In this document: one piece after another, positions 3,951-61,063 of the stretch
How positions within the stretch are numbered: the stretch's first letter is position 1
How the letters are laid out: each line of letters starts with the position of its first letter
NCBI GenBank assembly: GCA_020073375.1
Contig: JAIQFG010000059.1
Location: 1 to 64,000, forward strand
Direction of reading: 5' to 3'
Source of the DNA: Terriglobia bacterium
Lineage (GTDB): Bacteria > Acidobacteriota > Terriglobia > Acidiferrales > UBA7541
Length of the DNA stretch: 64,000 bases
The notes under the pieces: model-generated
What the model saw: only the letters and a program-made list of their open reading frames with translations
Database searches by the model: none
Told to the model about the DNA's origin: nothing
Translations under genes and position numbers: made by a program

Positions 3951-4022
3951 TGTGGCGCTGGAGTCTCGCCGGCGGTTTGCACTGCGAAGGTAAGAAATCG
4001 TCGGCGGGACGCCGGCGCCACA
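3951..4022. repeat. GTGG-type palindromic doublet (GCCGGC family)
   Basis: Left arm TGTGGCGC...CGCCGGCG and right arm CGGCGG...GCGCCACA face each other across about 25 bases. The same GTGGCGC/GCGCCAC feet occur at 20038 and 21606, and GTAG versions of the family at 41959 and 51095. Confidence 0.75.
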
Positions 4023-4080
4023 AAACATCATCCTGCACGTTCAATCGGGTGGAATGGCGGTAACCCTCAAGTCGGCAAAG

Positions 4081-5034
4081 TCAATACTGCGATCCGGCCT
4101 GCGGCTTGGAAGCCGAAGCCGGGGGAACCGACGATTGCCCCGCCGCCTGCTCCATGATTTTTACGCTGGCGCTGGCCCCGATGCGCGTGGCCCCGGCGCA
4201 GACCATTTTTTTCAAGTCGTCCAGGTTGCGCACCCCGCCCGCGGCCTTCACTCCCATTTCCGAGCCCACAATCGCGCGCATCAACGCCACATCCTCAGCC
4301 GTGGCCCCGGCGGTGCTGAACCCCGTGGATGTTTTCACAAAATCCGCGCCCGCTTTCTTGGACGCCACCGAGGCGCGCACTTTTTCCTCGACTGTCAGCA
4401 GCGCCGTCTCGAAAATCACCTTGCAGATCGCCCCGCCGCGATGGCTCGCCTCGACCACGCCGCGAATGTCCGATTCCACCGCGTCATCCTGGCCGGATTT
4501 CAGCGCGCCAATGTTGATGACCATGTCGATTTCCTGCGCGCCCAGTTTGATGGCCTCCTCGGCTTCGTGAATCTTCACCTGCGGAAGCGTGGCGCCCAGC
4601 GGAAATCCCACCACCGTGCACACCTTGACGTTCGTGCCGCGCAGGCACTCCGCGGCCAGCGGCACGTTCCACGGATTCACGCAAACCGACGCGAAGCCGA
4701 ACCGCGCCGCTTCCTCGCACAGTTTTTTGATTTCATCGCGGGATGCTTCCGGCTTGAGCAGCGTGTGATCGATCAGCCCGGCAAAGCCTTTATCCAGCTC
4801 CACCACCGAAGGCCCGCACGAAATGCGGTCGGCCCCGGCCTCGACCACCGCGCGCGTTTTGCGCGCGCATTTCTCGGCGCAATTCAGGTCGCAATCCGGG
4901 CAAATTTCGTCGTCGCGCCCGGCCCAGGCCGCCGGCAACCCGCCCGGCACGCTGAGATAGCGCACCACCTCTTCGGTGACCGCGCGCACAATTTGTTCAA
5001 ATTCGTTCGGATCCACTGTTCCAGCCTTCTCCAC
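4081..5034 (-). CDS. deoC: DeoC-type aldolase with N-terminal helix and four-Cys motif
   Basis: A deoxyribose-phosphate aldolase (class I, Schiff base) homologue of 317 residues, against about 220-260 for typical DeoC. The catalytic core begins near residue 85 with DHTLLKPEA and includes [17 protein letters not shown], the Schiff-base lysine in [11 protein letters not shown], and GVKAAGGVR. The extra N-terminus contains a predicted amphipathic helix ([18 protein letters not shown]), a proline/glycine-rich linker and a Cys motif [12 protein letters not shown] (C-x2-C-x3-C-x3-C) that could bind a metal. Such a leader resembles encapsulation peptides of bacterial microcompartment enzymes. The C-terminal 20 residues are Ser/Pro/Ala-rich. 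It lies downstream of the RpiB-like gene on the same strand, separated by a palindromic repeat. The physiological substrate is uncertain. Confidence 0.85.
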
Positions 5035-5062
5035 TCAGTTTTCAAACCATTTCATCGGTAGT

Positions 5063-5221
5063 CTTTGTGGGTCGCGGCTTCAGCCGCGACATTGGATCGC
5101 AAAAGCAGTGGGCTTTAGCCCCTGAAGAGTGAGCTATAAACTTGGCATTCCACCGCGCCAGCGGCTAAAGCCGCAACGCAAGCTCCTACTTATGTCGTGG
5201 CTAAAGCCACGACCCACAAAG
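5063..5221. repeat. Compound palindromic element with 12-bp outer arms
   Basis: Outer arms CTTTGTGGGTCG (5063-5074) and CGACCCACAAAG (5210-5221) are perfect inverted repeats. Inside each is a hairpin: GTCGCGGCTTCAGCCGCGAC on the left and GTCGTGGCTAAAGCCACGAC on the right. Two further hairpins lie between them (GGGCTTTAGCCC and GCGGCTAAAGCCGC). A shorter relative is at 57491-57554. Confidence 0.88.
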
Positions 5222-5229
5222 ATATCACT

Positions 5230-5781
5230 TCACTTTTTCGTGTGGCGCAACTCGATTCCCGCGATCTTGTCCACGCGCCGCTGGTGCCGCCCGCCGGCAA
5301 AGGGAGTCGCCAGCCACACCGCGAGAATTTCCCGCGCGGCCTCGCGCGAAATCAATTTCGCCCCCAGCGTGAGCACGTTCGCGTCGTTGTGCTCGCGCGA
5401 ATTGCGCGCCGTCGCGCGATCATAGCACAGCGCCGCGCGCACCCCCGGCACCTTGTTCGCTGCGATCGAGCTCCCGATCCCCGCGCTATCCAGCACCACG
5501 CCGAGCCATGCGTCACCGCGCGCCACCGCGTTGCCGACAGCTTCGGCGAAATCCGGATAATCCACGGCCTCCGCGGAACTGGTCCCAAGATCGAGAAATT
5601 GGTAGCCCCATTCGCGAAGATAATCCTTCAACTGTTCCTTCAACTCAAACCCGCCGTGGTCCGCGCCAATCGCCACGGTGCGGCCGGAGGGTTCCGCGGC
5701 GGCAGGAGGTAACGCCGTTCCCGGCGCCGCCGATCCTCCACCCGTTTGCCCCCCGGTCACGCGAAACGTGATCCCGCGCAT
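5230..5781 (-). CDS. rpiB: RpiB/LacAB-family sugar-phosphate isomerase, atypical active site
   Basis: A 183-residue member of the RpiB family, which interconverts ribose 5-phosphate and ribulose 5-phosphate or related sugars. Core motifs GADHGGFELKEQLK, SIAANKVPGVRAALCYD and ARNSREHNDANVLTLGAK are clear. The catalytic position is odd: E. coli-type enzymes have CGTGIG with a catalytic Cys and mycobacterial types use a Glu after the glycines, but here the stretch reads LDSAGIGSS, with neither. A Gly/Pro/Ala-rich leader of about 33 residues precedes the core and resembles a flexible linker. It is upstream of the aldolase gene on the same strand, so the two may act on the same sugar phosphate. 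Substrate unknown. Confidence 0.85.
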   Translation of the reverse strand: MRGITFRVTGGQTGGGSAAPGTALPPAAAEPSGRTVAIGADHGGFELKEQLKDYLREWGYQFLDLGTSSAEAVDYPDFAEAVGNAVARGDAWLGVVLDSAGIGSSIAANKVPGVRAALCYDRATARNSREHNDANVLTLGAKLISREAAREILAVWLATPFAGGRHQRRVDKIAGIELRHTKK

Positions 5782-5879
5782 CCAGGTCCGCGGATGTAAT
5801 GACGGGTTTCATTAAAGTAGAAACAGGATGGAAGGGCGAACCATCATCTCACCGACTTCCAAAAAAAGTAAAAGCGAAC

Positions 5880-5961
5880 GTCATTCCGAACGAAGTGAGA
5901 AATCCCTCTATAATTGAAACCCGGGAGAGATGCCTCGGCATAGTGCGTGCCTCGGAATGAC
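5880..5961. repeat. GTCATTCCGA inverted-repeat element
   Basis: GTCATTCCGA at 5880 and TCGGAATGAC at 5952 form perfect 10-bp arms. The same arms flank a second copy at 21070. This is a different family from the GTAG hairpins and has no coding capacity. Confidence 0.75.
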
Positions 5962-5980
5962 AATCTTTCTTTGCGAACGA

Positions 5981-6526
5981 TTAATTCGGAGGCAGCGAAA
6001 GAATGCAAACGTCCTTCAAATTCCGGTACCTCTCCGCGTAATCCAGCCCGTATCCCACCACGAATTCGTTGGGAATCTGAAATCCCACATAATCGGCCTT
6101 CACGTCCTTCTTGATCCGGCGCTCCGGCTTGTCGAGCAGCGCGGCGATCTTCAGCGAAGCCGGCTTGCGCTGCTGGAGCACGCGCAGCAGGTATCCCAGC
6201 GTCAGCCCCGTGTCCAGGATGTCCTCGACCACGATCACGTTTAGGCCTTCGATGCTGGTGTCCAGATCCTTATTGAGGCGCACTTGCCCGGACGTCTGGC
6301 TGCCGTGCCCGTAACTGGAGACGGACATGAAATCCAGGGACACCTCGACGCGCACCTGGCGAACCAGGTCGGACAGAAAAATCGCCGCGCCCTTGAGCAC
6401 CCCGATCAGGTGGACGCGCTGCCCCTTATAGTCCTTGGAAATCTGCGCGCCCATCTCGCGAACGCGCTTTTGTATCGCGCTGCTGCGCAACAAGACCTTC
6501 AGATGCTCCTGCCCATGGCCATGCAC
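5981..6526 (-). CDS. hpt: Hypoxanthine(-guanine) phosphoribosyltransferase
   Basis: A purine-salvage enzyme that transfers the phosphoribosyl group of PRPP to hypoxanthine or guanine. The 181-residue length fits the family. The PRPP-binding loop VIVVEDILDTGLTL is at residues about 99-112, HLIGVLKGAAIFLSDL is the N-terminal pyrophosphate loop, and LLDKPERRIKKDVKADYVGF with FVVGYGLDYAERYRNL forms the purine-binding end. The gene stands alone between two palindromic repeats. In many bacteria hpt sits beside tilS or ftsH; neither is here. Confidence 0.95.
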   Translation of the reverse strand: MHGHGQEHLKVLLRSSAIQKRVREMGAQISKDYKGQRVHLIGVLKGAAIFLSDLVRQVRVEVSLDFMSVSSYGHGSQTSGQVRLNKDLDTSIEGLNVIVVEDILDTGLTLGYLLRVLQQRKPASLKIAALLDKPERRIKKDVKADYVGFQIPNEFVVGYGLDYAERYRNLKDVCILSLPPN

Positions 6527-6546
6527 GGAACCACACCTCCAAACCG

Positions 6547-6620
6547 GTAGGAAAGGCTCCAGCCTGTCTAGTTCTTGGCTTGCCGCGAGAATAAAACCGA
6601 CAGGCTGAAGCCTGTCCTAC
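6547..6620. repeat. GTAG-type REP doublet, GACAGGC family
   Basis: The GTAG foot at 6547 leads into a degenerate hairpin (GGAAAGGCTCCAGCCTGTC). The right arm is the perfect GACAGGCTGAAGCCTGTC followed by CTAC at 6617-6620. It lies upstream of hpt. Confidence 0.85.
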
Positions 6621-6806
6621 TCGCCCGCAAGAAGCGGCTACTCTAGCCCAGCCCAAGAGAAAGCTCAAGGCGTGGCCCTTCTTGCTCTGGCACGGAGCGG
6701 CGCCATTTCGCGGACCCGTACCGCGCATTGCTCAGTCATGCAGTATTCTTGCGGCGGAGGCTGAGATTGCGCGGATCGATTCCCCGTGGCACCCTTGTGT
6801 CCGCTT

Positions 6807-7817
6807 ATGTCCTCGGCGAATGAAAACTGGAAAGACCGGAGTGTCATCGTCACCGGCGGCGCCGGATTCATCGGCAGCGTTCTGGTCTGGGAACTCAACC
6901 GGCGCGGATGCAGCCGGATCGTGATCGCGGATTACCAGCCGCCGGTCAAAAAACATTTCAATCTTTCGGGATTGCAATTTACCGACTACGTCGATCCGTC
7001 CGATCTGCCCGGATGGCTCAAATCCGGCTCGCTCGGACAGATCGACTGCATTTTTCATCTCGGCGCGTGCTCGTCCACCACGGAAACCAACGAAAAATAT
7101 CTGCGCGAAAATAATTTCGAGTATTCGCGCAGGCTCGCCGAATGGGCCCTCGGCAAGGGCGTGCGTTTTGTGTACGCCTCCTCCGCCGCCACCTACGGCA
7201 ACGGTGAAGCGGGCATGGACGACGCCGACCCCGCGCAGCTTGATCGGCTGCACCCGCTGAATCTCTACGGCCTGTCAAAACACTGGATGGACTTGCACGC
7301 CTGGAAGCACGGCTGGCTGGACAAAATCGCGGGCTTGAAATATTTCAACGTCTTCGGCCCGAATGAAAATCACAAAGGCGACATGCGCAGCGTGGTGTGC
7401 AAAAGCTATGCGCAAGCGCTCGACACCGGCGTCATTCACCTGTTCAAGAGCCACCGCCCCGATTTCCGGGATGGCGAGCAGCGCCGTGATTTCCTGTACG
7501 TCAAGGACGCCGTGGCCATGACGCTGCACCTGGCCGCGAATCCGGCAGCCAATGGAATTTTCAACATCGGCTCCGGAACCATGCACACCTGGAACGAGCT
7601 GGCCCGCGCCGTGTTCGCCGCGCTCGGCCGCCCTCCCCGCATCGAATATATCGACATGCCGGAATCCATCCGCGAAAAATACCAGTACTCGACGCAAGCC
7701 GACATCCGCAAATTGCTCGCCACCGGCTACGACCGCCCAATCACTCCGCTGGAAGACGCAGTGCGCGACTACGTGGTGAATTACCTGGTCCCCGGCCGTT
7801 CGATCGCCGCGGAATAA
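6807..7817 (+). CDS. hldD: ADP-L-glycero-D-manno-heptose 6-epimerase
   Basis: Epimerises the C6 position of ADP-glycero-manno-heptose for the LPS inner core, so a Gram-negative envelope is implied. This is an extended short-chain dehydrogenase: NAD-binding TGGAGFIGS at the N-terminus, SSAATYG, the catalytic pair in YGLSKHWMD, and KYFNVFGPNENHKGDMRSV, which is diagnostic for HldD. The ORF opens at 6786 but I prefer the ATG at 6807 (MSSANENWKD); neither start has a clear Shine-Dalgarno sequence. No other LPS gene lies nearby. Confidence 0.92.
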   Translation: MSSANENWKDRSVIVTGGAGFIGSVLVWELNRRGCSRIVIADYQPPVKKHFNLSGLQFTDYVDPSDLPGWLKSGSLGQIDCIFHLGACSSTTETNEKYLRENNFEYSRRLAEWALGKGVRFVYASSAATYGNGEAGMDDADPAQLDRLHPLNLYGLSKHWMDLHAWKHGWLDKIAGLKYFNVFGPNENHKGDMRSVVCKSYAQALDTGVIHLFKSHRPDFRDGEQRRDFLYVKDAVAMTLHLAANPAANGIFNIGSGTMHTWNELARAVFAALGRPPRIEYIDMPESIREKYQYSTQADIRKLLATGYDRPITPLEDAVRDYVVNYLVPGRSIAAE

Positions 7818-7856
7818 AAATCCCATCACAAATCTTCAAAAAAACGCCGTCAATTT

Positions 7857-7949
7857 CCAGTCGGACAGGCTTCAAGTCTGTCGGGGGTGGGGCGAGTGGG
7901 ATCGAGATTGCCGCAATTAAACCCGACAGGCTGAAGCCTTTCCTACTGG
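7857..7949. repeat. GTAG-type REP doublet overlapping the P450 stop codon
   Basis: The left arm GGACAGGCTTCAAGTCTGTC and right arm GACAGGCTGAAGCCTTTCCTAC face each other, with outer CCAGT/ACTGG arms. The GTAG foot on the minus strand (7946-7943) supplies the TAG stop of the P450 gene. Confidence 0.85.
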
Positions 7950-9283: not shown

Positions 9284-9323
9284 TGCTGCGGATTTCTCCT
9301 GAAGATTCGAATGGATGTCGTCA

Positions 9324-10409: not shown

Positions 10410-10735
10410 GCGGGACTCCTTATTGGGGCGCTGCCCAGGCGATTGCGGGGCGGCAAACAGCGCGAGTATAGCACCGGGACGATGCACACCGCATGGCAGA
10501 GGGTGATGGGACCATGATTGGTCCGGAAAGGGCCGATTCAGCATCTTGTAGGCTCAAAAACTCGCTGTCTTGGCGTGTCAAAACCCATTCCTTAACTTTA
10601 TTTTCAAATCCGAGTAACAAAAATAACGAATTTGCACAATAAGATGTGTTGGACTACCATTTGAACCGCTACCTGTAGGCCGGGAACAGAATTTGGGGTG
10701 TGAACGGCCTTGCAGAGTAGACCAAAGAAGGGGGT
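10410..10735. other. Divergent intergenic region, no gene seen
   Basis: This stretch separates the MetE-like gene from the divergent TonB-dependent receptor gene. It holds a palindrome GGACCATGATTGGTCC at 10509-10524 (6-bp arms, 4-base centre) that could be an operator, and an AT-richer stretch at 10555-10660 that probably holds the receptor promoter. No riboswitch fold was recognised. Confidence 0.5.
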
Positions 10736-10744
10736 GTGGAAGAT

Positions 10745-14044: not shown

Positions 14045-14074
14045 TCGGCGGTTTCGTCCGAGCAACCAACCAGC

Positions 14075-14107
14075 GGCGCCCCAAGCTATCGGGGCGCCGT
14101 TTTTTTT
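14075..14107 (+). terminator. Intrinsic terminator after the TonB-dependent receptor
   Basis: A perfect 8-bp GC stem, GGCGCCCC/GGGGCGCC, with an 8-base loop is followed by GTTTTTTTT. It lies 30 bases after the receptor stop codon. Confidence 0.92.
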
Positions 14108-14168
14108 GAGGGGTGATGCGACGCTGGCTGAGCAGGATGCGAAGTGGGCCCCTGCGGGGCCGGGTTCA

Positions 14169-14269
14169 GTAGCACAGCCACTCCTGGCTGTGTGGTTTTT
14201 GCAATTGTGCCGGCATTGGCTGCGCTTGTTTGGTCTACAAGGGCACACAGCCAGGAGTGGCTGTGCTAC
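14169..14269. repeat. GTAG-type REP doublet, CACAGCC family
   Basis: GTAG plus the hairpin CACAGCCACTCCTGGCTGTG on the left. The reverse complement, ending CTAC, is on the right, about 50 bases apart. It lies between a terminator and the convergent PD40 gene. Confidence 0.93.
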
Positions 14270-14323
14270 TCAATCCGTTGCGCAGGCTGTAAGAGCGCCA
14301 CAATCAGGCGCGCCTTTTTGAAC

Positions 14324-15436: not shown

Positions 15437-15450
15437 GGATTTCCCTCGAT

Positions 15451-17203: not shown

Positions 17204-17250
17204 GGTGTCTTTCTGATCGTAATGCCGTGGCGATTTGACTGTCAAATCGA

Positions 17251-17375
17251 GTAGCGCAGCCACTCTTTATCCCGAGCCCCTGCGAGAGGCTGGCTGTAGG
17301 GGTTTCTGTGCTCCGCAAACATCATTGACCAAATTTCCACTGCAAAAACCACACAGCCAGGAGTGGCTGCGCTAC
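17251..17375. repeat. GTAG-type REP doublet, degenerate left arm
   Basis: The GTAG foot at 17251 is followed by a decayed CGCAGCC hairpin. The right arm CACAGCCAGGAGTGGCTGCG ends in CTAC, directly abutting the TGA stop of the receptor gene on the minus strand. It separates that receptor from the M28 remnant. Confidence 0.82.
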
Positions 17376-19718: not shown

Positions 19719-20088
19719 ACGGCGGGAATCTCCCGGTGACGGCGCAGGCGGCACGGATCTCAGCCTCTGGGGCCGGTTGCGGCAAAGCGATCGCTCTTGG
19801 ACTTGTGCGCGCAAACCAAACTGGCCGCGGAAAATGGCCTCTTCTTGAGAAGGCGGCTGAACCTATTCGGCCATGCCAATGCCGTTTTTTCCTTGTCCAG
19901 AATACCGTAAAAATGCGGTCATTACCCGGATGACGGCGCGACTTGAGCCTATTCAGGAAACGGGCGGCAAGGAGGGCGATTTTCAGGCCATTGCCAAAGG
20001 GCTTAGGGCGCGATACCCACGGGAAACCAGTCAGATTTTCGTGGCGCTGGCGAGACGCCAGCGCCACGAAGTGCGCTTGGACCGGGGA
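19719..20088. other. Intergenic region, one hairpin only
   Basis: This lies between the receptor start and the end of the DUF5996 gene. Apart from the hairpin at 20038-20070 I see no gene, RNA or clear terminator. The short ORFs of the track here have no recognisable motif. Confidence 0.5.
20038..20070. repeat. Single perfect hairpin, GTGGCGC family
   Basis: TTCGTGGCGCTGGCG and its perfect complement CGCCAGCGCCACGAA flank a 3-base loop (AGA), making a 15-bp stem just after the stop codon of the DUF5996 gene. It could also serve as a terminator, but has no U-tract. Confidence 0.85.
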
Positions 20089-21069: not shown

Positions 21070-21165
21070 GTCATTCCGAGGCATGCTTTTCGCCGAGGAA
21101 TCTATCCTGCTTTTGAATCAAAAGAAGGATAGATTCCTCGGGCCAAAAACCGGCCCTCGGAATGG
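21070..21165. repeat. GTCATTCCGAG inverted-repeat element, second copy
   Basis: Outer arms CATTCCGAGG and CCTCGGAATG enclose an inner pair, GAGGAATCTATCCT and AGGATAGATTCCTC, making a long nested hairpin. It is related to the element at 5880 through the shared GTCATTCCGA arm. Confidence 0.82.
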
Positions 21166-21605: not shown

Positions 21606-21632
21606 GTGGCGCCGGCGGGATGCCGGCGCCAC
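21606..21632. repeat. Single perfect hairpin, GTGGCGCCGGC
   Basis: GTGGCGCCGGC and GCCGGCGCCAC form an 11-bp stem with a 5-base loop, GTGG foot included. It lies between the UBP gene start and the end of mpg. Confidence 0.85.
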
Positions 21633-23746: not shown

Positions 23747-23774
23747 GGTAGCACAGCCAAGCGGCTGTGCTACC
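23747..23774. repeat. Single GTAG hairpin, CACAGCC family
   Basis: GGTAGCACAGCC and GGCTGTGCTACC form a perfect 12-bp stem with a 4-base loop. It lies between the oxidoreductase start and the pyc stop. Confidence 0.88.
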
Positions 23775-27124: not shown

Positions 27125-27627
27125 CGGTGAACGATTCCTTGAATTACCGGGCGCAATCCGTGTCTCGCCGACATCGGTTGTAGTGCCGCTGTCCCACGTC
27201 CTGATAGGAAGAGTGCCGCGAATGGCCCAGCAGGCCTGTCCGGTTTCCGGCAGGCCTGCATTTTTCCCGGCGATCAGCGGGCAAGGCACGTGAACATCGG
27301 AGTACCAGCCCAATCCGGCTGCCCCGGCATTATAACGTGAAGCCCAAGTGGTTAAAGAACGCGGAATACGATTTGGCGATGACTAAAATTGATCGGAATG
27401 ATTTGAAAATCAAAATGCCGGCCGGCCGACAGCGGGCAGCATCTGCAAGATCTGAGGCGAAAGCAGAAATGTTGTTTTGTCCGGGCAGGATGCGGTTGCG
27501 GTTGCGGTTGTAGGGGCACGTGCCCCTACAGGCGATCCGTAAGGCCTAAAAATTAATGCGCAGGCGAGCATTATGCTATCCTGCGCCTACGCGGACTCCG
27601 TTAGAACATGCGGAATTGGAGGGGAAT
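27125..27627. other. Divergent intergenic region, one hairpin only
   Basis: This lies between the divergent pyc and SnoaL-like genes. The ORF track extends pyc into it by 63 residues, but those residues match nothing in the family. It contains a perfect GTAGGGGCACGTGCCCCTAC hairpin at 27509, preceded by a short GTTGCG tandem run, and otherwise nothing I can support. Confidence 0.5.
27509..27530. repeat. Perfect 22-bp palindrome with GTAG foot
   Basis: TGTAGGGGCAC and GTGCCCCTACA are perfectly complementary with no loop. The element follows TGCGGTTGCGGTTGCGGT, a tandem of the 6-mer GGTTGC. Confidence 0.88.
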
Positions 27628-32966: not shown

Positions 32967-33650
32967 ATGGCAAAAACACATTATGGCGTCGACGCCGAGC
33001 ATGTTATGCGCGAGCTTTCGCGGATCGATCGCAAATTGGCGCGCATCATCCGGCGCGTTGGCAGCTTCCCCACCAAGAAACGCAAACCGCAGCCTCCCTT
33101 TGCGAGCCTGCTGCAATCGATTGTGTATCAACAGCTGGCAGGAAAAGCCGCGGCCACGATTTTCGGGCGCGTGGTGGCTTTGGGTGCAAGCGGCTTCCCT
33201 ACTCCCGAGGAGATTGTGGCGATGGAAGCTGCGCAACTGCGCACCGCGGGGCTTTCCCGGCAGAAAATTGCGGCGGTGAAGGACTTGGCGGCCAAGACGC
33301 TCGATGGCACGGTGCCGACACTGGCGAAACTACGGCGCATGAGCGAGCAGGAGATTCACGACCGGCTGACGCAGATACGCGGGATCGGCGAGTGGTCCGT
33401 GCAGATGTTTCTGATGTCGCGGCTGGGGCGCGCGGACGTCTTGCCGATTCACGACCTGGGGATCCGCAAGGGATTTCAGATTGTCTACGGGCACGAAGAC
33501 GTTCCCAAACCGCAAGTAATCCTGGAACACGGGGAGCGGTGGCGGCCGTATCGCTCGATTGCAAGCTGGTATTTGTGGCGGGCGGCGGACCAGAAGAGCG
33601 AGAAGAAATCCGCGTTGAAGAAAAGCAAGACTAAGGGTGGGTGCAGGTAG
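32967..33650 (+). CDS. DNA-3-methyladenine glycosylase II-like (HhH-GPD)
   Basis: A 227-residue AlkA/MagIII-type base-excision glycosylase. LLQSIVYQQLAGKAAATIFGR opens the GPD fold. The helix-hairpin-helix is LTQIRGIGEWSVQMFLM, and the catalytic aspartate follows in VLPIHDLGIRKG. WRPYRSIASWYLWR is the conserved C-terminal helix. The last 20 residues are lysine-rich and may help DNA binding. It lacks the N-terminal domain of E. coli AlkA. The stop codon TAG is the foot of the palindromic repeat at 33647, and the final residues (GGCR) run right up to it, so the original C-terminus may have been altered. Confidence 0.92.
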   Translation: MAKTHYGVDAEHVMRELSRIDRKLARIIRRVGSFPTKKRKPQPPFASLLQSIVYQQLAGKAAATIFGRVVALGASGFPTPEEIVAMEAAQLRTAGLSRQKIAAVKDLAAKTLDGTVPTLAKLRRMSEQEIHDRLTQIRGIGEWSVQMFLMSRLGRADVLPIHDLGIRKGFQIVYGHEDVPKPQVILEHGERWRPYRSIASWYLWRAADQKSEKKSALKKSKTKGGCR

Positions 33651-33720
33651 GACAGGCTTCAGCCTGTCGGGTTTCCGCGCGCGGGGGCGGCAAAAACCGA
33701 CAGGCTGAAGCCTGTCCTAC
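33647..33720. repeat. GTAG-type REP doublet, GACAGGC family, overlapping a stop codon
   Basis: GTAGGACAGGCTTCAGCCTG and its inverted partner ending CCTGTCCTAC are near-perfect 23-bp arms around a 28-base GC-rich spacer. The TAG of the foot is the stop codon of the glycosylase gene. Confidence 0.93.
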
Positions 33721-35244: not shown

Positions 35245-35266
35245 CACAGGCTGAAGCCTGTGCTAC
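35245..35266 (-). repeat. Single GTAG hairpin, CACAGGC variant
   Basis: CACAGGCTGAAGCCTGTG followed by CTAC, so GTAG plus hairpin on the minus strand. It has the GACAGGC-family loop but the CAC...GTG base of the CACAGCC family. Confidence 0.82.
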
Positions 35267-35354: not shown

Positions 35355-35430
35355 TGGTGGGCGATCAAGGACTTGAACCTTGGACCTCTCGCGTGTGAAG
35401 CGAGCGCTCTAACCACTGAGCTAATCGCCC
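35355..35430 (-). tRNA. tRNA-Val (anticodon CAC), CCA encoded
   Basis: On the minus strand the 7-bp acceptor stem GGGCGAT/ATCGCCC closes a full cloverleaf: D arm GCTC...GAGC, anticodon stem CTCGC/GCGAG with loop TTCACAC (anticodon CAC), T arm CAAGG-TTCAAGT-CCTTG. Discriminator A and a chromosomally encoded CCA follow at 35358-35355. It lies between a REP hairpin and moxR. No integrase or attachment-site duplication is seen. Confidence 0.97.
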
Positions 35431-36465: not shown

Positions 36466-36566
36466 GTAGCACAGGCGCTCTTGCCTGTGTGCTTTTTGCG
36501 ATCGACGTGAAATCGGTGGCGTAGGCGCGGTCTATGAACCCACACAGCCAGGAGCGGCTGTGCTAC
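36466..36566. repeat. GTAG-type REP doublet with unlike arms
   Basis: The left arm is GTAG plus CACAGGCGCTCTTGCCTGTG. The right arm is CACAGCCAGGAGCGGCTGTG plus CTAC. The two arms carry opposite versions of the sixth stem pair (G-C versus C-G), so this element looks like a hybrid. It begins 6 bases after the moxR stop. Confidence 0.88.
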
Positions 36567-38057: not shown

Positions 38058-38157
38058 GTAGCACAGCCACTCCTGGCTGTGTGGTTTTGCAAGCCGAGCC
38101 AATTTCACCAAACCAAGTACAATCGCAAAACCACACAGCCAGGAGTGGCTGTGCTAC
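38058..38157. repeat. GTAG-type REP doublet, CACAGCC family
   Basis: GTAG plus CACAGCCACTCCTGGCTGTG on the left and its exact reverse complement on the right, about 45 bases apart, in the gap between the DUF58 gene and mutY. Near-identical to the element at 14169. Confidence 0.93.
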
Positions 38158-38189: not shown

Positions 38190-39356
38190 ATGCCGCGGGT
38201 GAGCCTTCTCGAAATTCCGCAAGCGGAAAAGAAATCGTTTCAGCGCCGATTGCTTTCCTGGTTTAGCGCAAGAAAACGCGACCTTCCCTGGCGGGGCACG
38301 CGGGACCCGTACCGCATCTGGCTTTCGGAAATCATGCTGCAACAGACGCGGGTGGCCGCCGTGATTTCGTATTACGAGCGATTTCTTGAAAAGTTTCCCA
38401 CCGTGGAGGCGCTGGCGCGCGCCAGGACGGAAACCGTGCTGGCCCGCTGGGCCGGCCTCGGATATTACAGCCGAGCGCGCAATCTGCAGCGGGCCGCGAA
38501 GGAAATTGTTGCCCACCACGGCGGAAAGTTTCCGCGCGGCTACGAACAGGCGTTGGCCCTCCCCGGCATCGGTCGCTACACGGCCGCGGCCGTGCTGAGC
38601 ATCGCGTATGGCGAGCCGCTCGCCGTGCTGGATGGCAACGTGGCGCGCGTGCTCGCGCGCATCGGCGCGGTGCGCGGCGATCTTCGCGCTTCGGCGCTTT
38701 GGCGCGGCCTGGAAGCCGGGGCGCAGGAACTGGTCACGCGAAAATCTCCCGGCGACTGGAACCAGGCCATGATGGAATTGGGGGCGACGGTGTGCACGCC
38801 GAAATCTCCGCGCTGCGAGGAGTGCCCTGTATCGGCGTGGTGCCGGGCGCGAAAACTTGGCATCGCCGCCGAAATTCCGGAAGCCCGCAAAAAACGCGCC
38901 ACGGAGAAACTCACGCTGGCCGCCGCCGTGCTGCTCGACCCGCAGGGACGCACTTTCCTGCTGCGTCACGCGGACGGGGACGGGGATCTGTTTTCGCACC
39001 TGTGGCAATTCCCGGCCATGGAGACTTCAGCCCAGGCGGGCTCCGAATTGCAAAATCATTTGCACAATCGGTTTGGCGTCACGGTCAGAGGCTCGACCGT
39101 GTCTCTCAAATCGGCGCGCCACGCGGTGACATTTCGTAATATTCAGGTTTGGCCGTTTCTGATGCGTGTGGCGCAATTGCCGGATTTCAGGGGCGCGAAG
39201 ACCGTGCCGCTGAAGCAAATCGGTGGTCTTCCTATCTCGAATCTGACCCGGAAAATTGCCGCGGCAGCCATCGTGCATTTCAAAGCAGAGGGTGGGTTGA
39301 CGGGAACGAAAACCCGCACCCTTGAAAACCACAATGGTGCGGCAGCCAAGGCTTAA
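38190..39356 (+). CDS. mutY: A/G-specific adenine DNA glycosylase
   Basis: Removes adenine mispaired with 8-oxoguanine. 388 residues from the ATG at 38190 (MPRVSLLE); the longer ORF-track start would read through the upstream repeat. The catalytic glutamate is in SEIMLQQTRV, the helix-hairpin-helix LPGIGRYTAAAV, the catalytic aspartate in AVLDGNVARV, and the iron-sulfur cluster C-x6-C-x2-C-x5-C in CTPKSPRCEECPVSAWC. The C-terminal half (about 235-365) is the NUDIX-like 8-oxoG recognition domain. It sits within an otherwise conserved moxR-DUF58-tgpA cluster. Confidence 0.95.
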   Translation: MPRVSLLEIPQAEKKSFQRRLLSWFSARKRDLPWRGTRDPYRIWLSEIMLQQTRVAAVISYYERFLEKFPTVEALARARTETVLARWAGLGYYSRARNLQRAAKEIVAHHGGKFPRGYEQALALPGIGRYTAAAVLSIAYGEPLAVLDGNVARVLARIGAVRGDLRASALWRGLEAGAQELVTRKSPGDWNQAMMELGATVCTPKSPRCEECPVSAWCRARKLGIAAEIPEARKKRATEKLTLAAAVLLDPQGRTFLLRHADGDGDLFSHLWQFPAMETSAQAGSELQNHLHNRFGVTVRGSTVSLKSARHAVTFRNIQVWPFLMRVAQLPDFRGAKTVPLKQIGGLPISNLTRKIAAAAIVHFKAEGGLTGTKTRTLENHNGAAAKA

Positions 39357-39430
39357 AGCTAAGCTTCACCCCTCGGACGGCGCTTCTGGCTGATGCCGCA
39401 ATCATCGCTCTGTTCATCCTCGGTCGGGTG

Positions 39431-39463
39431 CCGCACCCTTCACCGGCTTTCTGAAGGGTGCGG
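39431..39463. terminator. Possible terminator hairpin after mutY
   Basis: CCGCACCCTTC and GAAGGGTGCGG form an 11-bp stem with an 11-base loop, 75 bases after the mutY stop. The T-run is weak (GTTTAGA), so termination is possible but unproven. Confidence 0.45.
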
Positions 39464-39639
39464 GTTTAGATGTAAAGTGCGCCCAAGACTCATGAAGGGA
39501 CGCGGCCCCCTGAATGGCAATTGCCCTTCGATTCAGCAGCACACTCACATTTTCCAGAACCGATTCCTTCGGGCCATTACCTGTTAGGCTGCAACTAAAC
39601 CTGCCGGGCCGCAGGGATGTTAAACTGAACATTCAGCTG

Positions 39640-41958: not shown

Positions 41959-42032
41959 GTAGCGCCGGCGTCTCGCCGGCTCTTTTCCGCGCCGCAGCGC
42001 ACACACACTGCGGGCAAGATGCCGGCATTACG
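41959..42032. repeat. GTAG-type REP doublet, CGCCGGCG family
   Basis: The left arm is GTAGCGCCGGCGTCTCGCCGGC. The right arm GCAAGATGCCGGCATTAC is degenerate, with ATTAC in place of GCTAC. It lies between the transglutaminase gene and rimO. Confidence 0.75.
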
Positions 42033-42167: not shown

Positions 42168-43607
42168 ATGCCGAAAGCCGGAATCATCAGCCTGGGATGC
42201 CCGAAAAACCTCGTCGATAGCGAGGTGATGATGGGCGTTCTGGCGCGCAACGGGTACGAATTCACGCCGCGCGCCGAGGAAGCCGACGTCCTGGTGGTCA
42301 ACACGTGCAGCTTCATCGCTCCCGCGCAGAAGGAATCGATCGACACGATCCTGGAAATGGCCGAGTACAAGAAATTCGGCGCCGCGAAGAAATTGATCGT
42401 CGCGGGATGCCTGGTGGAGCGCTACCGCGATCAGATCCGGGAGCAGATTCCGGAGGTCGACGCGGTGATCGGCACGGGCGAGCTGGAAAACATTCTGGCG
42501 GCGGTTGAGGGAACGTTACGTGCGGATGCGGAGAATGCGGCTGGCCTGCCTTCGTATCTCTACCACGACCTCACCCCGCGGATCCTTTCGACGCCGAAGC
42601 ACGCCGCCTACATCAAGATCGCCGAGGGCTGCGATCATCCCTGCACGTTCTGCATCATCCCGCAACTGCGCGGGAATTTTCGCAGCCGCAGGTTTGAGTC
42701 GGTGGTGCGCGAAGCGGAAAATCTCGCCGCTTCCGGCGTGCGCGAGGTGACGCTGATCGGGCAGGACACCACTTCCTACGGCGAAGATTTGAATTTGCGC
42801 GACGGGCTTGCCGTTCTGCTGGAGAGGCTCGCGGGCGTCGACGGCCTGCAGTGGGTGCGCTTCCTTTACTGCTACCCAAATCGCGTGACGCAGCGACTGC
42901 TCGACACTATCGCCGCGCATCCGCGCCTGGCGAAATACATGGACATGCCGCTGCAGCACGCCAGCCGCAACGTCCTGGCGCGCATGAAGCGCGGATCAAG
43001 CGGCGAAGCATTCCTGCAACTGCTCGGGCGCATCCGCGCGACGATTCCCGGCGTGTCGCTGCGCACTTCGTTCATCGTCGGATTCCCCGGCGAAACGGAT
43101 TCCGATTTTTCCGAGCTTTGCGATTTCGTGGAAGCGGCCGAATTCGACTGGATGGGCGTTTTCCCTTACTCCGACGTGGACAACGCTTCGAGCTTCGCGC
43201 TCGATCAAAAAGTGGACGAAGACACGATCCAGGAGCGGCAGAATCGACTGATGCAGATTCAGCAGAAGATTTCGGCGCGCAAGCTGCGAAGATTTCGCGG
43301 GCAGCGCGCCACCGCACTGGTCGAAGGCCCGTCGAAGGACACGCCGCTGGTGTGGGAAGCGCGCTTGGAGGGCATGGCGCCGGACATCGACGGCAAAGTG
43401 TACTTGAACGACATTCAAGTCCCGGGAACGGATCTGAGCGCGCAGCCGAGCGACGTGGTTACGGTAGAAATTACCGAATCGCACGAGTACGATTTGGTGG
43501 CGCTCGTGGTGGAAATCCTGGATGTTCCGCGGCCGGCGGCGCAATCTGCGGCAACTGCGCCGGTACAGCGTGTGAATACTGGAGCGGCGCTGAGGATTTT
43601 CCAGTAG
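42168..43607 (+). CDS. rimO: Ribosomal protein S12 methylthiotransferase
   Basis: A radical-SAM enzyme that methylthiolates the conserved Asp of ribosomal protein S12. 479 residues from the ATG at 42168, which starts MPKAGIISLGCPKNLVDSE. The UPF0004 domain supplies three cluster cysteines (GCPKN, NTCSF, AGCLVE). The radical-SAM CxxxCxxC is in EGCDHPCTFCIIPQLRG, and a C-terminal TRAM domain runs about 370-440. The C-terminus is some 40 residues longer than usual, ending IFQ; its stop TAG is the foot of the downstream REP element. It opens the housekeeping run. Confidence 0.95.
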   Translation: MPKAGIISLGCPKNLVDSEVMMGVLARNGYEFTPRAEEADVLVVNTCSFIAPAQKESIDTILEMAEYKKFGAAKKLIVAGCLVERYRDQIREQIPEVDAVIGTGELENILAAVEGTLRADAENAAGLPSYLYHDLTPRILSTPKHAAYIKIAEGCDHPCTFCIIPQLRGNFRSRRFESVVREAENLAASGVREVTLIGQDTTSYGEDLNLRDGLAVLLERLAGVDGLQWVRFLYCYPNRVTQRLLDTIAAHPRLAKYMDMPLQHASRNVLARMKRGSSGEAFLQLLGRIRATIPGVSLRTSFIVGFPGETDSDFSELCDFVEAAEFDWMGVFPYSDVDNASSFALDQKVDEDTIQERQNRLMQIQQKISARKLRRFRGQRATALVEGPSKDTPLVWEARLEGMAPDIDGKVYLNDIQVPGTDLSAQPSDVVTVEITESHEYDLVALVVEILDVPRPAAQSAATAPVQRVNTGAALRIFQ

Positions 43608-43676
43608 GACGGGCTTCAGCCTGTCGGGTTTGATCTTGCTGAGACAAAAAGCTAGACAGGTTGAAGCCTGTCCTAC
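43604..43676. repeat. GTAG-type REP doublet, GACAGGC family, overlapping the rimO stop
   Basis: GTAGGACGGGCTTCAGCCTG at the left and GACAGGTTGAAGCCTGTCCTAC at the right. The foot TAG (43605-43607) is the rimO stop codon, and the right end is 8 bases before the yacG start. Confidence 0.92.
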
Positions 43677-49098: not shown

Positions 49099-49205
49099 AA
49101 ATTCACCCTACCCCTTAGCTGATCCGCACCAACCCGGGTTTCCCTCCTTCTGCCCCGTCATGCAAAACGGTAAAATCAGGGGGATAAGCCAGGACCGACC
49201 CAAAC

Positions 49206-50978: not shown

Positions 50979-51094
50979 CCCGCGATTCCCTTCCCCACTG
51001 GCAATTTTATGGCACGAGATTTACCTCGCAATTTCCCCCAACAATTTTTTTACGGTTTAACAGTTCGACCCAAATGCAGATTCCAATGGTTTTC

Positions 51095-51132
51095 GTAGCG
51101 CCGGCTCCCTGCCGGCAAGATGCCGGCGCTAC
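51095..51132. repeat. Single GTAG hairpin, CGCCGGC family
   Basis: GTAGCGCCGGC and GCCGGCGCTAC form an 11-bp stem. The 16-base loop contains another GCCGGC half-site. It lies 81 bases upstream of ftsY. Confidence 0.85.
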
Positions 51133-51212
51133 CTGCTCCCGCCCCGGCGCGTAACACCGCTTCCGTTCTGCTAGAATAGGCAATTCGCCGGGCTGCACCG
51201 CGGCAAACCTTT

Positions 51213-52187: not shown

Positions 52188-52195
52188 CGCTGCCT

Positions 52196-54008: not shown

Positions 54009-54166
54009 AACATGCTAAAAACGCGCGATGCCGGCGTACCGACGATGAACTCCGCGCAAATCGCGTATTTCGTGCGATGATTTGTTAAGCTATAGATTGT
54101 TCTCCTGCTGCGCGTGGGTTGGCAGGAGACGCATTTTCAAGAGAACGGCGCCAAGATGGTGAAATC

Positions 54167-55264: not shown

Positions 55265-55327
55265 TTCCGCCGCCGAAACAGCAAAGCCGACGGTCCGGTG
55301 TGATACCCTTCCGCGATAACCCAGACC

Positions 55328-56665: not shown

Positions 56666-56691
56666 ACCGCGCCACGCTGACGTCATATATT

Positions 56692-57345
56692 TCACGCTAT
56701 AATTTGAGAAATCCGCGGCGACACGACCTCGCCGCGCCTGGTTATGAGGACGTCCTCCGGAAAGTCCTGGCGATACTCGACCTGCAAGGATTCGAGCCGG
56801 TCCAAAAATTCCGGCAGCCGCGGCAAACAGGCATTGGGCACATCGTGAAGAACGACCACGGTCCAATCGCGCGCGGCCACGTCCGCGACGGCCTTCTCGA
56901 CCCATCCGTCCTGATCCTTCCAGTCTCCCGGCACGCTGGACCACAGTACGCACGTATAGCCTCCGGCTTGCAGCAACTGCAACGCCGCGCGGCTTAACAA
57001 ATGCGGGCCGATCAGGCCTCCGCCTCCCATGGGGCGAAAAAACTTTTCTGGGCGCGCCAGTGCCCCGATCAGGTTCTGCGTGTCCTCAATTTCCCGCCGG
57101 GCGTATTCCGCGTCGGGACGGTCGCCAAGCGGCTCACTGTGCGTGAAGGAATGGTTGGCGATCCAGTGCCCCTGCGAGTGAGCCCGGGCGGCGAGTTTCC
57201 TGCCGCCGGGGCTCTCGAGATTCTTGCCGAGAACGAAAAATGTGGAATGGATTTTGCCAGCAGACAGGATATCGAGCACACGTTCGGTAACGCCGGGCGT
57301 CGGCCCGTTGTCGAACGTGAGCGTCACGCGCTTGGCGGGTTTCAT
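56692..57345 (-). CDS. NodB-type polysaccharide deacetylase
   Basis: A 217-residue carbohydrate esterase 4 domain with little else. Motif 1 reads TFDNGP, where the usual second Asp (a metal ligand in characterised members) is Asn. Motif 2 is NHSFTHSE (HSxxH intact). Motif 3 is FRPMGGGG rather than RPPYG. Motif 5 contains VVVLHD. No signal peptide is visible, so it may be cytoplasmic or use an unrecognised route. It is convergent with the MFS gene, 27 bases between stops. Confidence 0.88.
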   Translation of the reverse strand: MKPAKRVTLTFDNGPTPGVTERVLDILSAGKIHSTFFVLGKNLESPGGRKLAARAHSQGHWIANHSFTHSEPLGDRPDAEYARREIEDTQNLIGALARPEKFFRPMGGGGLIGPHLLSRAALQLLQAGGYTCVLWSSVPGDWKDQDGWVEKAVADVAARDWTVVVLHDVPNACLPRLPEFLDRLESLQVEYRQDFPEDVLITRRGEVVSPRISQIIA

Positions 57346-57490
57346 ATTTTCCGGCTTGGGTTCTTGCGCGACGGCATTCTACGACGCGTGGCTCCATCCG
57401 GCCAGCAGGTTCGGAAAGAGCGCAGCGCCTGCTCTCGAGGAAACTAGAAGCCATCACAGAAATGGCCAGCGTTCAAGCTCGACGGCCCGC

Positions 57491-57554
57491 CAGGGGCTAA
57501 AGCCCTTGATTTTCGGGGCTCCGGATGTCGCGGCTGAAGCCGCGACCCACAAAG
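57491..57554. repeat. Palindromic element related to 5063-5221
   Basis: CAGGGGCTAAAGCCCTTG hairpin, then GTCGCGGCTGAAGCCGCGAC followed by the CCACAAAG end. It matches the right half of the compound element at 5063. Confidence 0.85.
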
Positions 57555-57573
57555 ATTATTTCGGAGACGGCTC

Positions 57574-58435
57574 TCAGTTGGGCAGCAAGGAATCGGTCCG
57601 GGCGGCCTGCACCTGCGAATCGGGCGGGGTGGAAAGCATGTCAAATTCCGGCGTGACTTCGTGCGGATGACGGACGACGTAGTGCGCGATCACGTAGCCA
57701 AGCGCCGCGCCCGCAAACACGTCCGATGGAAAATGGGATTGCAGCGGCACGCGCGAAAAACCCACCAGGCCCGCCAGTCCATAGGCCATCCAGACGTGCC
57801 AGACAGGATGCGGATAGCGGTCGGCAAACACGGTGGCGACTGAGAACGCGGCGATCGTGTGGCCGGAGGGGAAACTCCCGACGCCGCCGATGTAGCTCCC
57901 CTGGGTTTGCTTGAACCAGGTCGCGGACAAATCGCCGCCCGATGGAACCGAGTTGGGGCGGTAGCGCCGGTCGATGTCCTTCAGCACGGTGGTGACGAGT
58001 TCGGAATCGATGACTGCTTCGCCTGCGAGGAGTACGGTATTCTGCGCGTAGGCGTCCTTGCGCAGCAGGGCAACGGCGTAGAACGCGGCCGGGAAGACTT
58101 CCATCGCGGTCGCCGTGTTGAAGCCGCTAAAGGTCTTGTTGAATCCGTCGAACGCATGGGTGGTCTGGACCGGTCCAGATCTGCCTTTGATCCTGAAGCA
58201 GGTTTGGCAGTAGCAGACGCCAGGAAACTTCCCTCTCTGGCGTGATCCTAGAAACGGGTGCGGCGATGGCAGGGCCGGATGCGGAAGGATGCGAAGACGG
58301 CGGAACGGGGGCGGTCGAGGCCTCATCCGCTGGGTCGGCGCTCAAGGCGGAACTCAGCGCGCGATTGTCCTGCGCGAGGCATCGTTGCGTGACAACAAGT
58401 GTTACGATCAGCAGCAAAACAAGACGAATTCTCAT
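57574..58435 (-). pseudogene. PAP2-family phosphatase, N-terminus out of frame
   Basis: The ATG at 58435 opens a signal peptide (MRIRLVLLLIVTLVVTQRCLAQ) and an N-terminal region that reaches LLPNLLQDQRQIWTGP in one frame, which then stops at 58127. The phosphatase core continues in another frame from about HAFDGFNKTFSGFNTATAMEVF to 57574, with the three PAP2 motifs KDIDRRYRP, SFPSGHT and SRVPLQSHFPSD intact. Relatives have a membrane segment of some tens of residues between these two parts, so a short block is lost along with the frame. This is a pseudogene or an assembly collapse. The ORF-track 250-residue version starts with an unrelated shadow leader. Confidence 0.75.
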
Positions 58436-58545
58436 ACGATTGGGCCCAGGCCAAGCCCAATTAATTTAGCAATATTCCCCGATTCGGGTGGATGAATCGG
58501 CGCGGCGGTAGGCCTATTTATTACTGGCTCTTGGGACAGCTTCCG

Positions 58546-58645
58546 GTAGCACAGGCACTCCTGCCTGTGTGATTTTTGAAATCGAAATTGGCCGCTGACA
58601 TCCCGGCGGCCTTCAAACCCACACAGGCAAGAGTGCCTTTGCTAC
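58546..58645. repeat. GTAG-type REP doublet, CACAGGCA variant
   Basis: GTAG plus CACAGGCACTCCTGCCTGTG on the left, and CACACAGGCAAGAGTGCCTTTGCTAC on the right. Compared with the CACAGCCA family, the sixth stem pair is changed on both sides (C-G to G-C), so pairing is kept. Confidence 0.9.
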
Positions 58646-58671
58646 TCGACGGCCGGGGCGCGCATCGCGAA

Positions 58672-60144
58672 TCACCCGGCATGCGACGTGCTTTTCGCCC
58701 GAGCCCCGCGATAATACAGAATCAAACCAAGCATCACGGACAGCACGGTACCAGCCACCAGTTTCGTCTCAAACAATATCTTATTGGTTGTATCCCCCGG
58801 AGGAATGAACGACAGCACGATTCCAATCATGACGACCAGCAATCCGAACCCGGAAGCGAGGATGACTCCCAACCGTCCACCCGGAATGAGCACTGCCGAT
58901 TTGTTTTCGTACCGGTCGGGCAGCGCGTACAGCTTGATCGCCGCGGCGTACATGTACAAAAAGGGAATGAAGTACAGAATCGTCGCGGCATCCACCAGGA
59001 TCTGGTACGCGCCGCGCATGCTTTCACTGACTTGCGCCAGCAGCAGAATCACGCCTGAAATCACGGCCTGCACCAGGATGGAGATATACGGCGTCCTCCA
59101 CTTGGGATGAATCTTGCCGAATGCCTCCGGAAGATAGCGGTCGATGCCCACGATGAACGGAATGCGCGCGACCCCCGCCACCGTCGAACCCACGCCGCCC
59201 AGGTTCCCAACGGTTACCAGGGCTGCGGCGATCACGCCGGCGGCGGCCATGCGCAATGCCGTCGATCCCTGAGCCATTGCCTGGAAGACGCCGCTCTTGG
59301 TGTCCACGGTCTCGCTCGGCAGAATCATGAGCACGGCGATGGTTCCGGCGATATACATCAATGCAATCAGTCCTCCGGAAGCGAAAATTGCCCGGGGGAA
59401 AATGCGTTGCGGGTCGCGGACTTCCTCGCTCATGGCGGAAACCAGTTCCAGTCCGGTAAATGCGAACGCCAACTGCGGCCAGAAATTCACCGTGTCCCAA
59501 TCCCAGTGCGGAATCATCTGGGCCATCGTGAAATGGGTTACCGAACCGTGGCGCCATCCCAGCACCAGAGCAACACCCACGATCATCATCAGCGGCACGT
59601 AGGTCCCCACGCCGCCGGCATTCTGCAGCCACTTGCCGATATGCAGCCCGATGATGTTCAGGTACACGGCGACAAATAGCATCACCAGGGAACCCACCAG
59701 CAGGAAGGTGCGATTCTCGGCGAGCCAGGCATTTCCAGCGCCGCCGACATACGCCGTCATGGCCGCGCTCGCCAGCAGCAATCCTGGGAAATAAAATACG
59801 GTGTAAATCCAGTAGGTCCATCCGGCCACAAATCCGTGAAAATCGCCGAAGGCCATTTTTGTCCAGACGTATAGTCCGCCCTCTTCCGGAAAGCGCGTCG
59901 ACAACTCCACGACCACGTATGCCGTGGGGACGAAAAACAGCGCCGCCGCGAACACCCATAGAGTGATGGAAGACTGGCCATTGCGCGCTGCCGCGGCAAT
60001 CCATCGCGGACCCAGGACCGCGCCGATCGTAAACAACAGCACGTCCCAGAAACCCATCACCCGGCGCAATTGTTGCTTGGGTGTGGGCTCTACTTGGAGC
60101 CCACCGGGGAATGTCTTGGAGGAAACGGGCGCCGGTTGGTTCAA
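58672..60144 (-). CDS. APC-superfamily amino-acid/amine permease
   Basis: A 490-residue inner-membrane transporter with about 12 helices. VMGFWDVLLFTIGAVLGPRWIAAAA is the TM1 region, ELSTRFPEEGGLYVWTKMAFGDFHGFVAGW the TM2-3 motif and AFTGLELVSAMSEEVRDPQRIFPRA the TM6-loop signature of the APC family. The nearest named groups are glutamate/GABA and polyamine antiporters; substrate uncertain. The start is a TTG that overlaps the stop of the upstream ABC ATPase gene by 4 bases (TTGA). That coupling is odd, since APC permeases are secondary transporters with no need of an ATPase. Confidence 0.9.
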   Translation of the reverse strand: MNQPAPVSSKTFPGGLQVEPTPKQQLRRVMGFWDVLLFTIGAVLGPRWIAAAARNGQSSITLWVFAAALFFVPTAYVVVELSTRFPEEGGLYVWTKMAFGDFHGFVAGWTYWIYTVFYFPGLLLASAAMTAYVGGAGNAWLAENRTFLLVGSLVMLFVAVYLNIIGLHIGKWLQNAGGVGTYVPLMMIVGVALVLGWRHGSVTHFTMAQMIPHWDWDTVNFWPQLAFAFTGLELVSAMSEEVRDPQRIFPRAIFASGGLIALMYIAGTIAVLMILPSETVDTKSGVFQAMAQGSTALRMAAAGVIAAALVTVGNLGGVGSTVAGVARIPFIVGIDRYLPEAFGKIHPKWRTPYISILVQAVISGVILLLAQVSESMRGAYQILVDAATILYFIPFLYMYAAAIKLYALPDRYENKSAVLIPGGRLGVILASGFGLLVVMIGIVLSFIPPGDTTNKILFETKLVAGTVLSVMLGLILYYRGARAKSTSHAG

Positions 60145-60941
60145 GAAATCACATCCAGTGCGGGAATCAGCTGGTCCTGGCGCAGGAAATTGTGCAGGAA
60201 AGGTTCCGGAGCGGATTCAAACCCGGCCCAGGGGCCGAAATAGGCCACGCGGCCTTCGTGAAGAAATACGATGCGGTCGGCAAGCTTTTTGCCCAGGTGC
60301 GTATCATGCGTGACGACCACCGATGTCTTGTGAAATTTCTCCTTCAGCCGCAGGATCAAGTCGCCGGTATGCCCCGCCATCAACGGATCGACCATGGTGG
60401 TCGGCTCGTCATACAAAATTGCTTCCGGATCCTGCGCCAGAGCCCGCGCAATGGCCACGGCGCGCTTCATCCCCGTGCTCAGTTCGGATGGCAACTTATC
60501 GGCGACGTCGGTGACCTCCAGCATCTCTTCCAATTCAGCGATGCGTGCTTCCTTCTCCTCGAACGTCAGGCCGTCGCGCTTTTCCATCGGGAACGCGATG
60601 TTTTCCGCGACGGTCAGCGAATCGAACAGCGCGCCCGATTGAAATACCATGGTCACGCGGCGGCGGATTTTCGCCATCTCCCGTTCGTTGCAATCCATGA
60701 TGTCCTGGCCGTCGATCACCACCTGTCCCGAGTCCGGCCGCAGAAATCCCATGATGTGCTTCAGCGCCACGGATTTTCCCACGCCGCTGCGGCCCATGAT
60801 CACGCAGGTTTCGCCGCGATCGACGAAGAAACTCACATTGTCCAATACGACATGATCGTCAAACGCCTTGCAAACATTGCGGAATTCGATGTAATGGGCT
60901 GGTGCGGCCGGCGGGGAGGGTTGTTCGATGTGTGCGCCCAT
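60141..60941 (-). CDS. MlaF-like ABC transporter ATP-binding protein
   Basis: A 266-residue ATPase of the phospholipid/MCE (Mla) type. Walker A is GRSGVGKSVALKHIMG, the Q-loop VFQSGALFDSLTVAENIAFPM, the signature LSTGMKRAVAIARALA (LSTGM in place of the usual LSGGM), Walker B AILYDEPTTMVDP and the switch histidine VVVTHD. The first-position V in GKSV and the FDSLTV stretch are typical of MlaF. No MlaE permease or MCE protein is in the window. Instead the gene is coupled to an APC permease. It is divergent from groES. Confidence 0.9.
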   Translation of the reverse strand: MGAHIEQPSPPAAPAHYIEFRNVCKAFDDHVVLDNVSFFVDRGETCVIMGRSGVGKSVALKHIMGFLRPDSGQVVIDGQDIMDCNEREMAKIRRRVTMVFQSGALFDSLTVAENIAFPMEKRDGLTFEEKEARIAELEEMLEVTDVADKLPSELSTGMKRAVAIARALAQDPEAILYDEPTTMVDPLMAGHTGDLILRLKEKFHKTSVVVTHDTHLGKKLADRIVFLHEGRVAYFGPWAGFESAPEPFLHNFLRQDQLIPALDVIS

Positions 60942-60992
60942 CTTGGTTTGCTATTGTTGACGACCCAGAGCGCAGAATCAAAGCAATTCTCA

Positions 60993-61063
60993 GTGGGACA
61001 GGCTTCAGGCTGTCGGGGTTGGCGCTGCGAAATTCAAAAGCGACAGGCTGAAGCCTGTCCTAC
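60993..61063. repeat. GTGG/GTAG REP doublet, GACAGGC family
   Basis: The left foot is GTGG followed by GACAGGCTTCAGGCTGTC. The right arm GACAGGCTGAAGCCTGTC ends in CTAC. It lies between the MlaF-like gene and the groES promoter. Confidence 0.9.

Follow-up and report, generated by a model that had tools for sequence, protein, structure and literature searches.

GTAG-family REP elements with RAYT partners and fast turnover in a Terriglobia genome, a known kind of element in an apparently new host lineage

Introduction

What are the roughly twenty short hairpins that punctuate the gaps between genes in a 64,000-nucleotide stretch of Terriglobia bacterium (Acidobacteriota; assembly GCA_020073375.1, contig JAIQFG010000059.1, positions 1 to 64,000; this whole stretch is here called the window), and by what means did they come to be there? 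An earlier note, made from the sequence alone, read them as repetitive extragenic palindromic (REP) elements mobilised by a REP-associated tyrosine transposase (RAYT, or TnpA_REP), with inverted pairs as the bacterial interspersed mosaic element (BIME) form, and the analysis presented here supports that reading. The repeats are very probably GTAG-family REPs, mostly REPINs (two outward-footed REPs forming a hairpin), which are non-autonomous and would most likely be mobilised in trans by RAYTs of the HUH/Y1 kind. This interpretation is built on features read from the sequence itself, namely the design of the elements, their copy number, cognate RAYTs with the same stems, intergenic placement at gene 3′ ends, variation in REP presence and family between orthologous sites, and the frequent, exact coincidence of the foot with a stop codon.

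REP elements of the window

Consensus scans called 20 sites with GTAG or GTGG hairpins and one terminal inverted repeat (TIR)-type site, nearly all of them between genes. This agrees with the earlier count of about 20 intergenic elements of a single GTAG-foot design, except that two sites (33647 and 43604) overlap the upstream stop codon and that the TIR-type repeat, at 39310-39467, has no GTAG foot. The + strand has 12 perfect-stem footed hairpins and the - strand 16, as compared to 1-5 each (one strand) in five composition-matched shuffles of the window. In fuzzy consensus scans of Markov-simulated sequence, GACAGGC and CACAGSC had 0 matches, and GTCGCGGC and CGCCGGC each had 1 match in three simulations. 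The number of hairpins in the window far exceeds chance.

The elements carry a 5′ GT(A/G)G immediately before a perfect GC-rich stem with a short loop, and outward-footed inverted pairs make up the majority of sites. When five of these pairs were folded as single strands, four formed one long hairpin (z -9.6 to -12.1), the fifth, at 41959-42031, being weaker (z -2.9). The prevalence of outward pairs bears out the proposed arrangement of foot, hairpin and inverted copy, but the spacing between paired copies runs from 0 to about 100 nt and not from 25 to 70. At least five stem subfamilies share the foot, chiefly GACAGGC-TTCA, CACAGCC/CACAGGC with an ACTC-type loop, CACAGGC-TTCA, GTCGCGGC-TTCA and CGCCGGC. 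The earlier list of stems needs amendment in that GGGGCAC is represented in the window by a single double-foot palindrome (and as a bare 7-mer occurs at chance level), while the GTCGCGGC subfamily (5067-5217 and 57527-57550) had been missed.

The GACAGGC-TTCA subfamily supplies REPINs at 6547-6620, 33647-33720, where the GTAG provides the TAG stop of gene 32967-33650, 43604-43676, where the foot lies at the stop of gene 42168-43607, and 60993-61063, as well as a degraded pair with a GTCG left foot at 7860-7946. REPINs with ACTC-type loops are found at 14169-14269 (CACAGCC), 58546-58645 (CACAGGC), 36466-36566 (CACAGSC) and 38058-38157 (CACAGCC, with 33-bp perfect arms); single REPs lie on the - strand at 17352-17375 (CACAGCC) and 35245-35266 (CACAGGC-TTCA). 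Pairs of the CGCCGGC subfamily occur at 41959-42031 and 51095-51132, and scans also identified a GTGG-footed pair with a CGCCGGC/CGCTGG stem at 3952-4021. An inverted pair of GTGGGTCGCGGCTTCAGCCGCGAC hairpins, 103 nt apart, is present at 5067-5217, and a single GTCGCGGC REP at 57527-57550 on the - strand. Double-foot palindromes complete the set: GTGGCGCTGGCG...CGCCAGCGCCAC at 20041-20067, GTGGCGCCGGC...GCCGGCGCCAC at 21606-21632, GTAGCACAGCC...GGCTGTGCTAC at 23748-23773 and, of the GGGGCAC type, TGTAGGGGCACGTGCCCCTACA at 27509-27530. The TIR-type pair at 39310-39467 has a CCGCACCCTTG stem.

Some further features of these gaps were observed. The GTCGCGGC elements come with an inner AGGGGCTAAAGCCC hairpin (around 1395 of L044 and near 57490-57515 of the window), which suggests a composite element. 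A second short repeat family, consisting of CATTCCGAGG...CCTCGGAATG inverted repeats without a GTAG foot, is present at 21072-21164 and in several gaps of the sister species G084, where it sometimes occupies sites at which the genome under study has a REP. The sole Rfam match in the window was a tRNA gene at 35358-35430 on the - strand.

Abundance and placement across the genome

The assembly to which the window belongs comprises 176 contigs and is 95% complete, and genome-scale data were drawn from pattern searches together with sampled stretches (854 kb of this genome and 880 kb of G084). Exact copies of GTAGCACAGSCNNTCNNGSCTGTG and GTRGGACAGGCTNNAGCCTGTC numbered 101 and 235 genome-wide, with reversed-pattern controls giving 0, and the 854 kb held 281 footed hairpins as compared to 71 in the reversed control. 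Pairs in the same 854 kb were outward-facing in 57 cases, inward in 3 and tandem in 11. Placement was determined relative to 698 genes called by a simple codon model, and 191 of the 193 copies classified were intergenic. Convergent gaps were enriched (39 of 131 element sites versus 94 of 517 gaps). Between tandem genes the median distance was 45 nt from the upstream stop to the element and 130 nt from the element to the following start. The REP copies are biased to gene 3′ ends.

RAYT genes and their flanking stems

A search of the window found no RAYT gene, as the earlier note had stated, and RAYTs were found in the same genome and in relatives. The RAYT gene L005 (contig C34) has GTAGCACAGCGACTC-type and inverted CACAGCC copies on both sides and is therefore flanked by its own REP subfamily, CACAGSC, the pairing that the note had proposed as a check. 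At the contig end (1888-1995 of L005) the final ~70 nt of the RAYT gene recur in tandem together with a REP, which makes it probable that the assembly was interrupted within an array of RAYT and REP sequence. Same-genus or same-family RAYTs are flanked by CACAGGC-ACTC (L083), GTCGCGGC (L044 and L066, the stem of the pair at 5067-5217) and GGGGCAC (L073 and L077, a stem related to that of the palindrome at 27509-27530); the latter two stems flank RAYTs in sister genomes only. L068 is flanked by CACAGGC-TTCA beside CACAGACTTCA, matching the single REP at 35245-35266 in stem and loop, and L045, also from a relative, is likewise flanked by a stem of the window. The same-family L098 has flanks of GTAGGACAGGCTTTCTAGCCTGTCC / GGACAGGC-TTTC, a close variant of GACAGGC. 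For CGCCGGC no RAYT was found in the assembly, the nearest being the Sphaerobacter RAYT L146 with a CGCCGGC stem.

The association extends further. A footed hairpin stands next to the RAYT in 25 of 35 named relatives, as compared to 9 of 158 background windows, and L119 of Acidobacteria gp2, at 56% identity, has the same CACAGCC/CACAGGC REPs in its flanks. The nearest named RAYTs also point, indirectly, to a host within the Acidobacteriota. In a 54-protein tree the partner RAYTs of GACAGGC and CACAGSC form one clade (support 99/99); the number of stems is thus not the number of independent systems, a refinement of the earlier reading, in which different stems suggested several active subfamilies. 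The best solved-structure match is 4er8, a TnpA_REP, and the HUH motif and conserved tyrosine (Y156 of L005) are invariant across eight aligned RAYTs. L002, L004, L044 and L056 score above the cut-off of NCBIfam NF047646 (REP_Tyr_transpos). No phage match was found for L005.

Three further RAYT-like genes of this genome, L002, L003 (frameshifted) and L004, lie between dispersed long terminal inverted repeats, GGGTGCCCCGTCCTTG or GGGTGCCGCACCCTTG, which have no GTAG foot and are present in 24 exact copies genome-wide. The pair at 39310-39467 is a relative of these repeats, of the kind that flanks L004 and L045. A separate IS200-type transposase, L001 (G000:C60), has its own CCCGGGGT hairpin, which is unrelated to the REPs.

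Turnover between sister species

A block of G084 could be aligned to 27.6-63.5 kb of the window with 82-94% identity, apart from short stretches that match less well. Over the sampled stretches, 26 sites of the genome under study were comparable in G084. An intact same-family REP is present at only 3 of them, 4 have a REP of another family, 2 have some other hairpin, and the remaining 17 were scored as empty; copy positions are accordingly far from fully conserved between relatives. On inspection several of these 'empty' sites (33647, 38058, C149:36157, C149:38609 and C15:77994) contain a decayed or different REP, that at 38058 being a different REP pair, so the truly REP-free fraction is smaller than scored. 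G084 has no REP at the site orthologous to 60993-61063, lacks the single REP of 57527-57550, and has a GACAGGC-ACTC pair in place of the CGCCGGC pair at 41959-42031. At 36466, just behind a stop codon, three sister species are without a REP, and at 43604 four species have four different REP types (GACAGGC-TTCA here, GACAGGC-ACTC in G084). The GACAGGC-TTCA subfamily itself numbers 220 copies in this genome and 37, 8, 0, 0 and 0 in five sisters, two of whose assemblies are just 71-72% complete, which affects the low counts. REP positions are not conserved, and turnover between sister species is fast. The two outcomes that the earlier note had named as fatal to its reading, a lack of RAYT genes and conserved copy positions, are both excluded.

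Overlap of the foot with stop codons

The distance between REP and stop codon peaks sharply, as the TAG of the foot is the stop codon in 23 of ~140 gene-end neighbours in the 854 kb, where ~0.9 would be expected from a uniform distribution. The RAYT genes L005, L068, L083, L091, L093, L098 and L073 also end on the TAG of the foot. That GTAG REPs often supply TAG stops was already stated by Di Nocera 2013 (PMC3733652), which rules out the overlap as a novelty, and the comparison with REP-less orthologues is the only part of this result that goes beyond that work.

Among the orthologues of the 23 host genes the REP is common to about eight. Eight orthologues that lack it have their stop at the identical codon; one of these (C15:93010) stands beside a possible decayed repeat and two others have a different REP further downstream. 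In the rest of the orthologues without that REP the stop is 3-18 nt further 3′ in about five and 6 nt 5′ in one. Same-codon and shifted stops together indicate that a REP would insert in some cases at a stop already present and in others within the final codons of the gene, and the more distal stops of about five relatives indicate that the foot also truncates genes. A G precedes the stop in 7 of the 8 same-codon orthologues (background 0.33, P about 0.0025, for a hypothesis formed on the same data). It is conceivable, if doubtful on a few diverged sites, that REPs insert at pre-existing GTA(G/A), above all at stop codons, with the target supplying part of the foot. A partly target-derived foot may be likened to IS608, in which the TTAC flank comes from the target.

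Discussion

By the mechanism that we favour, a RAYT would bind the single-stranded foot-plus-hairpin, cleave adjacent to the hairpin and then re-insert the element, preferentially just behind genes, and copies would decay or be replaced once the matching RAYT is lost. TnpA_REP of E. coli acts on single-stranded REP, cutting at a CT adjacent to the structure, and depends on the GTAG; the same chemistry would apply here. One REP family may also have been partially replaced by another, much as in the published model of REP succession.

Several points weigh against mobilisation by RAYTs. No movement was seen, transposition being what we infer; some orthologous sites share the element, and the boundaries of empty sites are too diverged to reveal exact insertion junctions. 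In addition, GACAGGC-TTCA, the most abundant subfamily, is without a matching RAYT in the 176-contig, 95% complete assembly, its nearest GACAGGC partner, L098, belonging to another genus and having a different loop, and L005 itself, at 73.9 bits, falls under the 80-bit cut-off of NF047646. As RAYT loss is known, a RAYT for every subfamily, including GACAGGC-TTCA and CGCCGGC, is not required of a GTAG REP family.

The location of the copies behind genes, in particular in convergent gaps and, between tandem genes, at a median of 45 nt behind the upstream stop, would also suit host elements under selection, such as transcription terminators or stabilisers of mRNA 3′ ends, with a merely convergent likeness to REPs. 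This explanation is rendered improbable by the majority of sites that have no intact same-family copy in a sister species, and by stems that are nearly identical over hundreds of copies and also flank RAYT genes; REPs may nevertheless have an added terminator or stabiliser role. It is likewise quite unlikely that existing copies recombined with or converted one another and spread in that way alone, the transposases being inactive and the RAYTs bystanders. The different REP types within matching outer boundaries in the orthologous gap at 43604 do suggest in-place replacement, but such exchange leaves unexplained the REP-free orthologous sites such as 36466, the family-specific amplification, and a pairing of RAYT and stem that is consistent across phyla. 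An ordinary IS200/IS605 transposase is present in the genome in the form of L001, whose miniature inverted-repeat transposable element (MITE)-like derivatives the copies might be, without involvement of the RAYTs; with its unrelated hairpin at L001 and the REP stems adjoining RAYT genes instead, we regard this as hardly credible.

GTAG-family REPs moved by RAYTs, the reading retained here, conform to GTAG REPs, REPINs and REPtrons as described by Nunvar 2010 (PMC2817692), Bertels and Rainey 2011 (PMC3116915) and Di Nocera 2013 (PMC3733652) in their GT(A/G)G foot, 7-9 bp stem, short loop, outward inverted pairs and hundreds of intergenic copies, in a RAYT with cognate REP flanks and a duplicated rayt 3′ end inside a BIME, and in a foot giving TAG stops. 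The 2013 survey (PMC3733652) reported GTAG repeats in Proteobacteria, Cyanobacteria, Chloroflexi and the Planctomycetes-Verrucomicrobia-Chlamydiae (PVC) group, while for Acidobacteria it named only TIR-flanked transposases. The present elements differ in host lineage and in the co-residence of at least five subfamilies with a TIR family. L002, L003 and L004, with their flanks and moderate dispersal (24 exact copies), resemble the TIRtrons/TIRYT reported for Acidobacteria (PMC3733652), but here stand beside GTAG REPtrons in one genome, a coexistence already known in Stenotrophomonas (PMC3733652). The class 3 TnpA_Y1 of Acidobacteria and Planctomycetes (PMC6006769) similarly have repeated hairpins around Y1 genes in Acidobacteria, but with a CnGA foot and a Y....Q motif, whereas GTAG feet and a Y[VI]E.N motif go with the L005-type proteins.

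We are therefore dealing with a known kind of element, GTAG REPs/REPINs with RAYTs, in what seems to be a new host lineage, and GTAG REPtrons would accordingly be present in a phylum for which only TIR-flanked transposases were reported in the 2013 survey. The dissemination of REPs has so far never been fully explained, and the points of interest are the number of co-resident families, their measurable turnover and the hypothesis of stop-codon targeting. As several subfamilies reside together in this lineage, with RAYT partners that have been identified and a fast turnover among alignable species, insertion sites, target choice and in-place family replacement become directly testable by comparative genomics.

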